The position numbers and the translations under genes were made by a program. The notes below the pieces were generated by a model, which was not told the DNA's origin, searched no databases, and worked only from the letters and a program-made list of their open reading frames with translations. Shown one piece after another: positions 4,395 to 8,907 of a stretch of DNA of 64,000 nt. Each line of letters opens with the position of its first letter. The first letter of the stretch is position 1. The DNA is from Deltaproteobacteria bacterium (GTDB lineage Bacteria > Desulfobacterota > Binatia > HRBIN30 > JACQVA1): contig JACOST010000014.1 in the NCBI GenBank assembly GCA_016178705.1, positions 434,001 through 498,000 on the forward strand, given 5' to 3'.

Positions 4395-5441
4395 ATGAAC
4401 GACCACGACATGAACGACCTCACGCCGTCCGCACATGCGCCCGCATGGACTCGCAGCGCGCACTGGCGCTGGTGGGGTGCATTGGCAGGGCTCGCCACGG
4501 GCCTGTTCGATGCGGTCTTCCTCACGCAACTGGGCGTCAGCTTCGCGATCAACGGGCACGACGCGACGCTGCTGGTCGGCGCGTACTTCGGACTGACCTT
4601 CGCACTGCTCGGCTACCTCGTCGGATTGTTGGCTGCGAGTCGGCGGCGCGACCATCGCGCGGCGATCGTGATCCAATCACAGTTGGAGATGCTCAACGCA
4701 ACCCGCGCACGGCTGGCGCAAAGCGAGAAGCTGGCGGCCCTCGGACAGCTCGCGGCGGCCATCGCGCACGAAGTACGCAACCCGCTCGGCGTGATCCGCT
4801 CGGCAGCACAGGGACTCGCCGAGTCGGTAGTCGCCCCCGAGTCGGCGGACGGCCGAGATTCGGCAATCGGCACGGATGACGAAGGGCGACGGGCCTGCTC
4901 GTTCATCATCGCCGAGGTGGACCGATTGAACAACGTGATCACGTCGCTGCTTGCCTTCGCGCGGCCGCTGCACGTGCGCCCGCGCGCCGTCGGCGTGTCG
5001 GAGCTGCTCGATCGCGCCCTGCTGCTCGCTGGCGAAGAGTTGGCGGCGAAACGGATTCGCGTCGAACGTGACGATCAATCGGGGATGCCCGCCGTGCAGG
5101 CTGATCCCGACCTGCTCAGTCAGGTGCTGCTCGGCTTGCTCGCCAACGCCAGCGAGGCCGTATCACCCGGCGGTGAGGTTGCGCTGCGCGCGCGCACCAC
5201 TGAGGGTACCATCGCCATCGACGTGACCGACTCCGGCCCTGGCGTGCCGGCGGATTTGCGCGAGCAAATCTTCGAACCGTTCTTCACCACCCGCACACGT
5301 GGCACCGGGCTCGGGCTAGCGATCGCGCGCCAGATCGTCGCAGCGCACGGCGGCCGCATCGAAGTCGGCGAGCGTGACGGTGGCGGCGCGCGCTTCACCA
5401 TTTCGCTACCGATCGCGCGCGATGCCGCGCTGGCAGCATGA
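4395..5441 (+). CDS. Sensor histidine kinase (NtrB/AtoS-like)
   Basis: This 348-residue kinase has two membrane segments (about residues 27-50 and 58-80) with almost no periplasmic loop. A coiled linker follows, then the H-box AIAHEVRNPLGVI with H125 as the phosphorylated residue. The C-terminal ATPase shows the N-box (LLANASEAV), G1 (DSGPGVP) and G2 (GTGLGLAIA). No PAS domain is visible, so the signal is probably sensed in or at the membrane. The stop overlaps the start of the NtrC-type regulator by four bases (ATGA), so the two are translationally coupled partners. The ATG at 4410 is an alternative start. Confidence 0.9.
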   Translation: MNDHDMNDLTPSAHAPAWTRSAHWRWWGALAGLATGLFDAVFLTQLGVSFAINGHDATLLVGAYFGLTFALLGYLVGLLAASRRRDHRAAIVIQSQLEMLNATRARLAQSEKLAALGQLAAAIAHEVRNPLGVIRSAAQGLAESVVAPESADGRDSAIGTDDEGRRACSFIIAEVDRLNNVITSLLAFARPLHVRPRAVGVSELLDRALLLAGEELAAKRIRVERDDQSGMPAVQADPDLLSQVLLGLLANASEAVSPGGEVALRARTTEGTIAIDVTDSGPGVPADLREQIFEPFFTTRTRGTGLGLAIARQIVAAHGGRIEVGERDGGGARFTISLPIARDAALAA

Positions 5442-6778
5442 AGCCCCGCATTCTGATCGTCGATGACGAAACGCGCATGGCGACGGTGATCGCCATGGCG
5501 CTGGGGCGCGCCGGGTACGAGTGCGAAACGTGCAGCGACGGAGCCGCAGCGCTGAAAGCCTTGGAGGCGCGACCCGCTGACTTGGTCGTCACCGATTGGA
5601 AGATGCCGCAGATGGACGGGATCGAGCTGCTACGGCAGTTGCATGCGCGCCAGCCGGCACTGCCGGTGATTCTCGTCACGGCGCACGGCAGCGTGCCGTC
5701 AGCGGTCGCCGCGATGCGCGACGGGGCGTTCGACTACGTGACGAAACCGTTCGACAACGATGAGTTGCGCGCGATCGTCGCCCGCGCCCTCGACCTAACG
5801 CGCCTCGAGCGCGAGAACCGCTACCTCCGACAAGAGGTGGCCAGCCGCTACGCGCCGGCCGCGATGGTCGCCGAGAGTTCTCGCAGTAAGGATGTGCTCG
5901 ATCTCGTGCGCCGCGTCGCGCCGAGTCGGGCGACGGTGTTGATTCAAGGCGAGAGTGGCACGGGCAAGGAACTGATCGCCCGCCTGCTGCACTATTGGAG
6001 CGATCGTGTCGGCCGCCCGTTCGTGCCCGTGAACTGCAAGGCGTTCGCTGAAGGAGTGTTAGAGAGCGAGCTGTTCGGACACGAGAAGGGTGCGTTTACC
6101 GGCGCCGCGGCGGCGCGCATCGGGTGCTTCGAGCGGGCCACCGGCGGCACGCTGTTCCTCGATGAAATCGGCGAGACCGCGCCAGATTTTCAAGCCAAGT
6201 TGCTGCGCGTGCTGCAAGACGGCGAGGTGCTACCCGTCGGCGGCACGCAGCCGCGCACCATCGACGTGCGTGTCGTCGCCGCCACCAACCGCGTCTTGCG
6301 CGATGAGATTGCGGCCGGCCGCTTCCGCGAAGATTTGTACTTCCGCCTCAACGTGATCCCGATCCAGCTTGCGCCCCTGCGCGAGCGTCGCGAGGACATC
6401 CTGCCGCTGGCGCGCCACTTCCTCGATCGCCATGCCGCCGAAGCGGGGCGCGCGCTGACCCTTGCGTCCGAATCAGAGGAGACCCTGAACACCCATCCGT
6501 GGCCCGGCAACGTCCGCGAGCTGGAGAACGCCATCGAGCGCGCCGTCGTACTCGCGCGCACCGAAGTCATCACGCCGGAAGACCTCCTGCTGGAGCACCG
6601 CGGTGGGCCCGCCGAGTCAACTCGGGACGGCAGCCTGCACCACGCCCTCGATCACACCGCCGCCGCGCGCATCCGCGCGGCGCTCAATAGTGCAAACGGC
6701 CAACGCAACGAAGCCGCCCGCGCCCTCGGCATCGACCGCACAACGCTGTACCGGATGATGAAGCGATTCGGGTTGTGA
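5438..6778 (+). CDS. NtrC-family sigma-54-dependent response regulator
   Basis: The 446-residue protein has all three expected domains. The receiver (1-120) has the phosphoacceptor D53 in VVTDWKMPQMDG, T81 and K103. The AAA+ domain has Walker A GESGTGKE (171-178), the sigma-54-contacting GAFTGA loop (218-223) and Walker B TLFLDE (238-243). A Fis-type helix-turn-helix closes the protein (NEAARALGIDRTTLYRMM). It should activate sigma-54 promoters on phosphorylation by the kinase encoded immediately upstream. The intact GAFTGA means it is a true activator. Its likely sites are the palindromes upstream of the operon. Confidence 0.93.
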   Translation: MKPRILIVDDETRMATVIAMALGRAGYECETCSDGAAALKALEARPADLVVTDWKMPQMDGIELLRQLHARQPALPVILVTAHGSVPSAVAAMRDGAFDYVTKPFDNDELRAIVARALDLTRLERENRYLRQEVASRYAPAAMVAESSRSKDVLDLVRRVAPSRATVLIQGESGTGKELIARLLHYWSDRVGRPFVPVNCKAFAEGVLESELFGHEKGAFTGAAAARIGCFERATGGTLFLDEIGETAPDFQAKLLRVLQDGEVLPVGGTQPRTIDVRVVAATNRVLRDEIAAGRFREDLYFRLNVIPIQLAPLRERREDILPLARHFLDRHAAEAGRALTLASESEETLNTHPWPGNVRELENAIERAVVLARTEVITPEDLLLEHRGGPAESTRDGSLHHALDHTAAARIRAALNSANGQRNEAARALGIDRTTLYRMMKRFGL

Positions 6779-6808: not shown

Positions 6809-7492
6809 TCACGCATTCGCCGCCAACGCTCCTTCCAGTCGCAGCAGCTTCCTCTTGATCGTCAGACCGCCGGTGTAGCCCCCGAGTTTGCCGTCGGTCG
6901 CAATGATGCGATGGCATGGGATGACGATCGGGATCGGGTTGTGACCGAGCGCTTGGCCGACGGCGCGGCTGCCACGCGGGCGGCCGATTCGCTTGGCAAT
7001 GTCGCCGTACGACACCACGCGGCCCCGCGGGATTTGCGCGGTCGCGAGCAATACCCGCCGCTGAAACGGAGTGACGTGGCTGAGATCGGTTTGCACATCG
7101 AATGCGGTCCGACGACCGGCGAAGTAGTCCCGGATCTGATGCACAACCGCCTTCGTCTTTGAGGCGGACTTCATTACCTCTGTCCCGAGCTCCTGGCGTA
7201 GATCACTGGCGAACGCCGATTCGCTCCGACGGAACGACACGCGCACCAACCCGCCTTCGATGGTGGCGACGAACACGCGGCCGATCGGTGTGGTGATGGA
7301 ATCGTAGTAGGCCGCGCGAGGAGCCATGGCGCCGGCGACATTGCTATACAAACGCTGAAGCCCGCTGAGCACGCGTTGATACTCGGCCAACTTCCGCCGT
7401 CCGCGATCGCTGTCGAGCCAGCGTTGCAAAGCGACCGACGGCTTCGCGTCATCGATCAGCATCGCGATCAGTTCATCATCATGAGATTTCAT
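6809..7492 (-). CDS. O6-alkylguanine-DNA methyltransferase with an anti-sigma-like N-terminal extension
   Basis: Residues about 62-227 are an Ogt/MGMT-type alkyltransferase: the recognition helix region RVVSYGDIAKRIG and the active site IPCHRII with acceptor cysteine C193. It repairs O6-alkylguanine by irreversible transfer of the alkyl group to this cysteine. Residues 1-60 are extra: DDELIAMLIDDAKPSVALQR followed by a charged helix and LAEYQRVLSGLQRLY. This pattern resembles the N-terminal sigma-binding region of anti-sigma factors but lacks the zinc ligands. The start codon overlaps the stop of an ECF sigma factor gene by four bases (ATGA), exactly where an anti-sigma gene usually lies. I infer a repair enzyme that doubles as an alkylation-sensing sigma partner. 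Confidence 0.88.
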   Translation of the reverse strand: MKSHDDELIAMLIDDAKPSVALQRWLDSDRGRRKLAEYQRVLSGLQRLYSNVAGAMAPRAAYYDSITTPIGRVFVATIEGGLVRVSFRRSESAFASDLRQELGTEVMKSASKTKAVVHQIRDYFAGRRTAFDVQTDLSHVTPFQRRVLLATAQIPRGRVVSYGDIAKRIGRPRGSRAVGQALGHNPIPIVIPCHRIIATDGKLGGYTGGLTIKRKLLRLEGALAANA

Positions 7493-7986
7493 TGTGTACC
7501 TCCGAGCACCGCGCGCAGTTTCTTGATCGCCTGGTAGACGTTGGCGCGTGCGGTCGCCTCGTTGCCGCCGACGGCGGCGGCAATCTCGCTGTAATTCATA
7601 TCGTGGAACTGCCGCAGCATCAGCGCCGCGCGCTGGCGCGGTGGCAGTAACCGTACGGCGTCCGCCACCGCGCGCAGCTCCTGACGCTGATCGGCGGACA
7701 CACTGACGCTTGCCGGCAGCGTGTCAAGGTCGACCTCAACCGCCCGCGCGGCGAGCCGTGACCGCCGGCGCATGGCGTTGAGCGCGCCGTTAGTCGCGAT
7801 GCGATACAGCCACGCGCGCACATTCGAGTCGGGTGCCAAGTTGGCAAACGCCCGCTGCGCCCGCAGGAACGCATCCTGACACGCATCCTGTGCGTCGGGC
7901 TCGTTGCCGAGCATTCGTACCAGATAACGCAGAATGTCCGATCGATGGCGCTCGGCGAATTCAGCGAATGACGACGGCGGATTCAT
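7489..7986 (-). CDS. ECF-type RNA polymerase sigma factor
   Basis: The 165-residue protein has region 2 (DAQDACQDAFLRAQRAF, then NVRAWLYRIATNGALN) and region 4 (LLPPRQRAALMLRQFHDMNY followed by a helix-turn-helix). The frame is open further upstream, but homology begins at MNPPSSFAEFAERHR and the ATG at 7984-7986 follows AAGGGG. It is the first gene of a two-gene operon with the Ogt-type methyltransferase, coupled by ATGA. ECF factors usually transcribe their own operon, so the inverted repeat in the divergent upstream region is a candidate control site. The target regulon is unknown. Confidence 0.9.
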   Translation of the reverse strand: MNPPSSFAEFAERHRSDILRYLVRMLGNEPDAQDACQDAFLRAQRAFANLAPDSNVRAWLYRIATNGALNAMRRRSRLAARAVEVDLDTLPASVSVSADQRQELRAVADAVRLLPPRQRAALMLRQFHDMNYSEIAAAVGGNEATARANVYQAIKKLRAVLGGTQ

Positions 7987-8019
7987 CTTGCCCCTTGTAA
8001 CACTCCAGTAGGGGGCGAT

Positions 8020-8055
8020 GTGAAACGCGAACCGACGTTCCGGTTGCGATTTCAC
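8020..8055. promoter_or_regulatory. Interrupted inverted repeat between the ECF sigma and hydrolase genes
   Basis: GTGAAACGCGAACCG (8020-8034) and CGGTTGCGATTTCAC (8041-8055) form an inverted repeat in which GTGAAA and AACCG match on both arms and four central bases do not; six bases separate the arms. It lies 34 bases upstream of the sigma factor start and 57 bases upstream of the hydrolase start, so it could be an operator or a bidirectional promoter element. Confidence 0.45.
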
Positions 8056-8112: not shown

Positions 8113-8907
8113 ATGAGCACATATGTTTTGGTTCACGGCTCGTGGCATGGCGCGTGGTGTTGGTACAAGATCGTGCCGCGACTCGAACAGGCGGGCCACA
8201 CGGTCGTCGCCCTCGACTTGCCCAGCCACGGGCGCGATCGAACACCGCCGGGTGACGTGTCGATGGCCGACTACGTCGAGGCAATCGGCCGAGTCCTCGA
8301 CGCGGCAGACGAGCCGGTCGTGCTGGTCGGCCACAGTCGCGGCGGGCTGGCGATCACGCAAGCGGCGGAAGAGCGCCCCGAGAAGATTCGCTCGCTGGTG
8401 TACCTGGCGGCGTTCCTCATTGGCGATGGTGAGACGATTCTTCCGCTCGCGTTCGCGGACACTGATTCGCTCATCATGCCCAACCTCGACGTCGATCAGG
8501 ACGCGGGCTGGGACATGCTACGGCGTGACGCCTTCAAGGCGACGCTCTACGCCGATTGTTCCGAGGACGACGTGGCGCTCGCCCACGCGCTGCTTACTCC
8601 CGAACCGAGTGGTCCGACAAACACACCGATGCGGACAACGGCCCAACGCTTCGGACGCATTCCACGGGTCTACATCGAACTCCTGCAAGATCGAGCGGTG
8701 TCACCCGCGCTGCAGCGGCAGATGTACACGGCAATGCCGTGCCGGAAAGTATTGTCGATCGATGCAAGTCACTCCGCGTATTTCTCGAGGCCCGACGAAC
8801 TTGCGAGTAAGATTCTGCACGCCGGCGGCGATATCTACGATCTCCGCTCACGCCAGCGGTGCGACGAGAATCACCAGCACATCGAAGACGAGATGAGAGA
8901 CCACTGA
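8113..8907 (+). CDS. Alpha/beta hydrolase (methylesterase-like)
   Basis: The protein starts MSTYVLVHGSWHGAWCW, the oxyanion-hole HG region of EstC/plant-methylesterase-type hydrolases. The nucleophile elbow is VGHSRGG (S75), and the catalytic histidine lies in DASHSAYFSRP near the C-terminus. The natural substrate, probably a small ester, is not deducible. A strong Shine-Dalgarno AAGGAGGT at 8099-8106 fixes the ATG at 8113. The last about 20 codons run past the usual end of the family and overlap the 3' end of the convergent CPBP gene by 60 bases, so the tail may be a recent read-through extension. It is divergent from the ECF sigma operon. Confidence 0.85.
   Translation: MSTYVLVHGSWHGAWCWYKIVPRLEQAGHTVVALDLPSHGRDRTPPGDVSMADYVEAIGRVLDAADEPVVLVGHSRGGLAITQAAEERPEKIRSLVYLAAFLIGDGETILPLAFADTDSLIMPNLDVDQDAGWDMLRRDAFKATLYADCSEDDVALAHALLTPEPSGPTNTPMRTTAQRFGRIPRVYIELLQDRAVSPALQRQMYTAMPCRKVLSIDASHSAYFSRPDELASKILHAGGDIYDLRSRQRCDENHQHIEDEMRDH

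Follow-up and report, generated by a model that had tools for sequence, protein, structure and literature searches.

An O6-alkylguanine-DNA methyltransferase encoded directly behind an ECF sigma factor, and its possible role as an anti-sigma factor

In removing the alkyl group from O6-alkylguanine in DNA, enzymes of the Ogt family irreversibly alkylate their own acceptor cysteine. In the 64,000-nucleotide stretch of bacterial DNA analysed here (the window), the gene for such an enzyme lies directly behind the gene for an ECF sigma factor, and its product begins with an N-terminal extension. A reading of the locus from its sequence only had proposed that this extension is an anti-sigma domain, and that alkylation of the enzyme releases the sigma factor. 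Does this Ogt restrain its neighbour, and is the arrangement more than an accident of one genome? The features concerned are collected in Table 1.

Table 1. Features of the sigma-Ogt locus, in window coordinates
Feature	Position	Strand	Basis
Ogt-type O6-alkylguanine-DNA methyltransferase gene with N-terminal extension	6809..7492	-	ORF, 227 aa, stop included
ECF sigma factor gene, sigma2 + sigma4	7489..7986	-	ORF, 165 aa, stop included
ATGA shared by the sigma stop and the Ogt start	7489..7492	-	sequence
GGAGG, likely Ogt ribosome-binding site, within the sigma gene	7499..7503	-	sequence
Cys193 codon, alkyl acceptor in PCHR motif	6914..6916	-	sequence
Residues 1-58 of Ogt, N-terminal extension, proposed to bind sigma (anti-sigma domain)	7319..7492	-	AF2 helices; zinc domain in relatives
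Proposed sigma-dependent autoregulatory promoter, TTTCAC-N18-GTTACA	7996..8025	-	conserved motif upstream of sigma genes

Both open reading frames described in the sequence-only reading are present, and they overlap as it had said. The sigma frame starts with an ATG at 7986 and terminates with a TGA at 7489-7491, so that the tetranucleotide ATGA is common to its stop and the Ogt start. Its product matches the Pfam families Sigma70_r2 (1.1e-16, residues 11-77) and Sigma70_r4_2 (9.8e-14, residues 105-157) and is a sigma factor of the short ECF type, with sigma2 and sigma4 only. The second gene encodes a full alkylguanine methyltransferase, again as had been claimed: DNA_binding_1 (PF01035, 4.8e-35) and Methyltransf_1N (PF02870, 1e-7) are both matched, the protein has the DNA_binding_1 and ribonuclease-like N domains that the O6-alkylguanine-DNA methyltransferase family requires, and the motif IPCHRII is present, with C193 as acceptor. 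The core of its AF2 model (approximately residues 59-226) superposes well on OGT of M. tuberculosis (4wxc; Z 22.4, rmsd 2.0 over 154) and on Ada of E. coli (1sfe; Z 22.0, rmsd 2.1 over 162). The Pfam matches start at residue 62 and about 58 residues precede the core, in keeping with the extra N-terminus of some 60 residues that had been noticed. Neither an AraC-type DNA-binding domain nor an Ada metal-binding domain was found in the window Ogt with Pfam at E <= 1. Three additional genes with an Ogt domain are present in the same genome.

The locus is flanked by genes on either side. Upstream, and divergent from the sigma gene, lies an alpha/beta hydrolase gene (8113-8907, + strand; Abhydrolase_6, 7.5e-30), and a 126-bp intergenic region is common to the two. 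Downstream of the Ogt gene, and convergent with it, is a 446-aa open reading frame (5438-6778) that by eye resembles an NtrC-type response regulator.

To what extent is the gene pair conserved? As a first sample, 80 relatives of the window Ogt were taken from genome contigs, and a sigma gene was found directly upstream in 14 (13 recognized by phmmer with the window sigma at <=4e-19, and one, at locus L020, at 6e-7). An alignment of 15 paired Ogts was then used for profile searches of 297 genomes from the window's phylum, 400 from the phylum of locus L017 and 396 from that of L074. Altogether 265 loci were examined, the window copy and two duplicates counted; a sigma gene lies upstream in 100 of them and is missing there in 165. 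Removal of the duplicates (L131, identical to L017, and L143, identical to L012) gives 98 distinct pairs, including that of the window, and in 77 of these the two genes overlap by exactly 4 nt. Counting fetched matches only, and hence as lower bounds, the pair occurs in at least 39 of the 400 genomes, at least 45 of the 396 and, in the window's own phylum, at least 6 of the 297. There, 28 of the 30 loci taken from the best matches have no sigma gene upstream. Because the similarity searches for relatives started from the window Ogt or from 15 Ogts, each with a sigma gene beside it, and because 100 of the regions were hand-picked from ranked lists, the ratio 98/265 is not a prevalence. One locus scored as unpaired (L205) carries the final 30 residues of a sigma gene at its contig edge and is in fact a pair. 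The search of other genomes that had been suggested thus recovered the same gene order, mostly with the 4-nt overlap, in several phyla, and the arrangement exceeds chance. No natural sigma-Ogt fusion was seen among the 265 loci at the thresholds used.

Two of the pairs stand out for other reasons. In Acetothermia (L020:3238-4528), a very different ECF sigma factor, on a long branch of the sigma tree, is followed after a 22-nt gap by an extended Ogt; this pairing is possibly an independent origin of the same arrangement. In a metagenome-assembled genome (L016:3441-4100), the paired Ogt lacks a normal C-terminus after GGYSAQ, perhaps owing to a frameshift.

The catalytic residues are kept throughout. 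C193 and Y162 are invariant among the 98 paired Ogt rows and R176 is found in at least 90% of them; we take Y162 to be the flipping Tyr and R176 the Arg finger of the Ogt family. PCHR is retained in 98/98, and the paired Ogts are therefore expected to be active transferases.

Does the extension accompany the sigma gene? For paired loci we took as the Ogt start the in-frame start nearest the sigma stop, favouring ATG, so that extension length and overlap are both tied to the sigma stop by this choice; for unpaired loci we took the first in-frame ATG, a rule that favours long starts. Defined in this way, the extension is no shorter than 20 residues in any of the 98 paired Ogts (median 38, range 20 to 140); in 21 of them it is 31 residues or shorter, too short for a three-helix domain. 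An in-frame ATG was found in 156 of the 165 unpaired Ogts, at a median of 9 residues before the core; 113 of the 156 start fewer than 20 residues before it and 43 start 20 or more. For the 28 unpaired loci of the window's phylum, the corresponding numbers are 23 and two (L103, L110), with no ATG in three. Inspection of 25 unpaired loci by eye, L205 among them, indicated that many of the long starts resemble read-through of upstream sequence or other domains: those of L204 and L279 look like AraC-type domains, that of L225 like the Ada type, and L110, L266 and L273 have an unrelated start in common. L239, whose start resembles the extension although no sigma gene lies upstream, is a possible exception. 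The sequence-only reading had held that extensions in relatives that have no sigma neighbour would tell against it; L239 does so weakly, as do the 43 unpaired loci with an early first ATG.

We also modelled the 28 residues before the Ogt core, training on four-fifths of the pairs and testing on the held-out remainder. Held-out pairs had a median score of 16.1 bits. For the 130 unpaired loci whose open frame was long enough the median was –1.0, and the AUC separating the two sets was 0.978. Against shuffled pairs the AUC was 0.898, meaning that the signal is partly one of composition. The window scores only 2.0 bits, above 108 of the 130 unpaired stretches. These scores indicate that the stretch before the core is a sequence feature common to paired Ogts.

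What kind of domain might the window's own extension be? In the AF2 model of the whole Ogt (pLDDT 92.2, pTM 0.74), it is predicted to form helices at residues 4-14, 20-27 and 29-56, the third being long and less sure towards its end (block means of 82, 87, 93 and 92 over the first 40 residues, falling to 79 and 64 over residues 41-60). This predicted structure is compatible with a three-helix anti-sigma domain; class I anti-sigma domains add a fourth helix to such a bundle. However, the pattern DDELIAMLIDD...LAEYQRVLSGLQRL, which the sequence-only reading had taken for that of sigma-binding helices, finds no match among known anti-sigma families: residues 1-61 match no Pfam family at E <= 1 and no anti-sigma family of NCBIfam, and support for the assignment comes from relatives instead. 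The remark that the extension has no zinc ligands was correct, as it contains neither Cys nor Hx3Cx2C; the latter motif is missing from 93 of the 98 pairs overall. A fold search with the window model covered approximately residues 59-226, and the core filled the lists; no anti-sigma chain was among the matches listed.

Among the relatives, five paired Ogts (L006, L105, L148, L149 and L219) have Hx3Cx2C and an upstream Cys in the extension. Pfam zf-HC2 matches these extensions above its curated cut-off in L148 (1.8e-8) and L006 (6.7e-7) and short of it in L105 (4.7e-4), L219 (1.2e-3) and L149 (0.014). The NCBIfam RsrA model matches L148 (5.9e-6) as well as L105, L149 and L219 (1.1e-3 to 2.3e-3), all under the model's cut-off, and gives no match in L006. 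When a profile of the five was compared with the PDB, the top match was 3hug_B (2e-4), an entry named 'probable conserved membrane protein' that we take to be RslA; second was the anti-sigma factor RsiW (5wuq_C, 0.012), and the anti-sigma factor DdvA (8rlz_A, 0.09) came barely ahead of an unrelated match (0.12). On the basis of these zf-HC2, RsrA-like and PDB profile matches, we regard the five proteins as an anti-sigma domain joined to an Ogt and encoded after a sigma gene, the domain being recognizable as the zinc type.

In a tree of the 98 sigma rows (midpoint-rooted for drawing), the window and the five zinc relatives cluster in a 19-row group (support 99/91) that mixes zinc and non-zinc forms. 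Such mixtures have precedent: class I anti-sigma groups with both zinc and non-zinc domains are described in PMC7406223, which puts the share of class I domains that lack Hx3Cx2C at about 44%. Because the zinc anti-sigma domain occurs in five members of the same clade, the extension of the window can be read as anti-sigma by family, and this reading is supported, on sequence grounds, at that level. Conserved pairing, the common feature before the core and the zinc domain of the five relatives favour what the sequence-only reading had proposed; the extension-like start of L239, at which no sigma gene is found, counts against it.

A direct link between the window extension and the zinc forms is harder to draw. 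Scored with the profile of the five zinc extensions, the window extension obtains 4.0 bits (p 0.004, 10,000 shuffles) in an alignment too short to place residues, and two unpaired stretches, L262 (7.0 bits) and L270 (5.4), outscore it. In a set of 12 extensions outside the zinc profile, each compared with 500 shuffles, p was 0.006 for the window, 0.038 for L016 and 0.054 or more for the others. With a match this weak and an alignment this short, we assign no residues of the window as replacements for the zinc ligands. Aligned with each other, four non-zinc extensions of 60 residues have only M1, L26 and L48 in common. The window extension is linked weakly by sequence to the zinc versions.

Two other approaches were set aside. 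Direct homology was rejected as a pairwise result, since comparisons of the window extension with the five zinc forms and L190 gave p values of 0.09-0.55, like those of shuffles. Contact with the sigma factor was modelled for the relative L268, with its sigma factor and Ogt joined as one chain read through the stop. Of the mixed alignments of sigma and Ogt rows made for this model, A3 and A6 misplaced the Ogt rows; the one chosen, A4, still has the distal ends of the extensions out of place. The resulting model (mean pLDDT 81, pTM 0.56) is of low confidence for sigma4 and the extension, with block means of 38-79, and was not taken as support.

An extension that binds sigma need not inhibit it. 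It could act as a tether or co-activator: the sigma factor might recruit Ogt to RNA polymerase or transcribed DNA, or might be activated by Ogt in its alkylated form. Any stable complex would fit overlapping genes and conserved pairing, and the extensions of 31 residues or less fall short of a full anti-sigma domain. But five members of the window's sigma group have the zinc anti-sigma domain, of a family known for inhibition, and we consider a tether or co-activator rather unlikely.

To look for a shared promoter motif, we counted all pairs of a 5-mer and a 4-mer upstream of the 98 sigma genes and found CTCAC-N17-CGTT upstream of 38 of them; in three shuffles, no word of any kind exceeded 8. 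The wider form YTCAC-N17/18-GTY is found upstream of 76 of the 98 (mean 1.8 and maximum 5 in 40 shuffles); of the 19 rows in the window's sigma group, 14 have it (shuffles: mean 0.15, maximum 2). One caveat here is that the wider form was picked after the data had been seen, and that the shuffles ignore the kinship of the sequences. In the window, the site is TTTCACATCGCCCCCTACTGGAGTGTTACA (7996-8025, - strand), with 9 nt between its end and the sigma ATG. The strict form TTTCACR-N17-GTTAYA occurs once in the 6.1-Mb genome of the window; for a shorter form, the 64-kb window has a single site, and 15 of 100 shuffles have at least one. Across 13 genomes, we counted 9 sites of the 17-spaced form, of which 4 belong to sigma-Ogt operons, versus 6 sites for a reversed control. 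CTCACG-N16-CGTT exceeds its reversed control in 16 of 18 genomes and ties in 2, but we draw nothing from this excess because the control ignores coding bias. A motif retained by this many sigma genes belonging to one family points to autoregulation. One genome from the window's sigma group has a second TTTCAC-N17-GTTATA away from the sigma operon (locus L363, G300:C1:121868-121896), which may be due to chance.

This motif would also serve if the methyltransferase gene were simply an output of a sigma factor that drives its own operon and is controlled by other means, with the extension contributing to Ogt stability, dimerization or turnover. That the window extension matches no anti-sigma family agrees with such an arrangement, as does a precedent in C. 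glutamicum: in the parts of PMC3489674 and PMC4510997 on which we draw, a putative methylated-DNA-cysteine methyltransferase is among the genes that go up on rshA deletion or sigH overexpression, and the anti-sigma factor of the ECF sigma factor SigH is a separate protein, RshA. Yet the extension tracks the sigma neighbour, and in relatives it is a known anti-sigma domain. Among the proteins picked in the flanks by a mechanical rule and scanned (61 of 78 upstream and all 32 downstream), no third gene recurs, the commonest family reaching 4/61 upstream (best 25 of 48 families) and 3/32 downstream. We therefore think it improbable that ogt is merely an output.

Some neighbours are worth recording individually. 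In three loci that are otherwise distant from each other (L149:507-1418, - strand; L017:2294-3220; L043:1138-2082), the gene after the pair encodes an EamA-type transporter, and in one locus the pair is followed by a gene of the uracil-DNA-glycosylase family (L005:4532-5224; UDG, 1.6e-25). Immediately upstream of the sigma gene, two loci encode another Ogt with Ada_Zn at its C-terminal end (L012:2761-3468 and L191:111-842), giving the order Ogt-Ada, sigma, Ogt, and in L155 the gene picked downstream of the pair has Ada_Zn.

Ada_Zn_binding is the methyl-phosphotriester sensor of Ada. This domain also occurs within the pairs, C-terminal to the Ogt core in 5 of the 98 paired Ogts, where it was identified by Pfam scan in L105 and L275 and by alignment to those two in L267, L268 and L269. 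One protein (L105) is common to the five with Ada_Zn and the five with a zinc extension, and combines anti-sigma, Ogt and Ada domains in a single chain.

The motif Hx3Cx2C in the extensions of L006, L105, L148, L149 and L219 might suggest that zinc/thiol chemistry, as in RsrA, is itself the sensor, for oxidative or electrophile stress with Ogt as a passenger, but this is very improbable given that the motif is missing in the window and in 93 of the 98 pairs whereas PCHR is present in every one.

We favour, as moderately probable, a sigma/anti-sigma operon in which the DNA-repair enzyme Ogt is itself the anti-sigma factor, and in which alkylation of Cys193 frees the sigma factor to induce further repair capacity. 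In an undamaged cell, the N-terminal helices of Ogt would hold and inhibit the ECF sigma factor. On repairing O6-alkylguanine, Ogt would become irreversibly alkylated on Cys193, and the spent protein, altered or degraded, would let go of sigma. The freed sigma factor would transcribe its own operon from TTTCAC-N18-GTTACA, raising the levels of both sigma and fresh Ogt, until sigma is titrated once more by Ogt that is not alkylated. Such a circuit would have positive feedback while lesions persist and would shut off once fresh Ogt exceeds them, an adaptive response akin to that of E. coli Ada, made through a sigma factor rather than an activator. Pairing, overlap, extension, the anti-sigma domain of relatives, the active-site motif and the promoter motif are the parts of this scheme that the sequences show; from these we infer the holding and inhibition of sigma and its release by C193 alkylation or turnover.

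The proposal can be set beside several known systems. As in the class I anti-sigma factors RsrA, RsiW and RslA, the gene comes right after that for sigma and encodes an N-terminal domain predicted to be helical, present in the zinc form in relatives of the window; unlike them, the window protein has an O6-alkylguanine transferase as its sensor part and a domain without zinc ligands or a significant family match. With E. coli Ada it would share induction of the transferase's own gene by an alkyl group on a protein Cys, and some relatives of the window have the Ada metal-binding domain, but the window Ogt is without the AraC-type DNA-binding domain, and its output would use a sigma factor. Stand-alone Ogt/AGT proteins have the same core fold and PCHR active site, but not the added N-terminal helical stretch or the sigma operon. 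SigH/RshA of C. glutamicum, so far as the cited parts go, likewise link an ECF sigma factor to a methylated-DNA-cysteine methyltransferase gene, with the difference that a separate protein serves as the anti-sigma factor.

The closest published neighbourhood is that of ECF122. In its entry for this group, a 2022 review (PMC8999054) gives 6-O-methylguanine DNA methyltransferases as neighbours, with WP_057211282.1 of Cellulomonas sp. Root930 as the type, and places ECF122 under 'unknown mechanism', among groups without a cognate anti-sigma factor. The association of such sigma factors with methyltransferases is thus already known. As far as that entry goes, ECF122 resembles the window pair in that an ECF sigma gene adjoins an alkylguanine methyltransferase gene, a likeness in gene neighbourhood, and differs in that ECF122 was published without an anti-sigma factor, whereas here the methyltransferase is proposed to carry one. 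PMC8103513 nowhere mentions methyltransferase, alkyl, methylguanine or Ogt. An alkyltransferase anti-sigma factor was not found in the literature by title or abstract; as far as this search goes, neither the anti-sigma domain nor the Ada variants nor the promoter has appeared in print, although the paper defining ECF122 may say more. That paper is reportedly one from NAR in 2021 (reference 7 of the 2022 review).

More broadly, the chances seem about even that these operons represent widespread 'suicide anti-sigma factors', in which a single-use repair enzyme inhibits a sigma factor and the repair event frees it, such that O6-alkyl lesions are counted singly by a dedicated self-inducing operon and some lineages also read phosphotriester damage through an Ada domain. 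If true, this would be a second way of mounting an adaptive response to alkylation, used in Chloroflexota, Actinomycetota and other phyla. It would give both a signal and a mechanism to a sigma neighbourhood published with neither, and would provide a clean case of a repair enzyme that is sensor, inhibitor and product of one operon.
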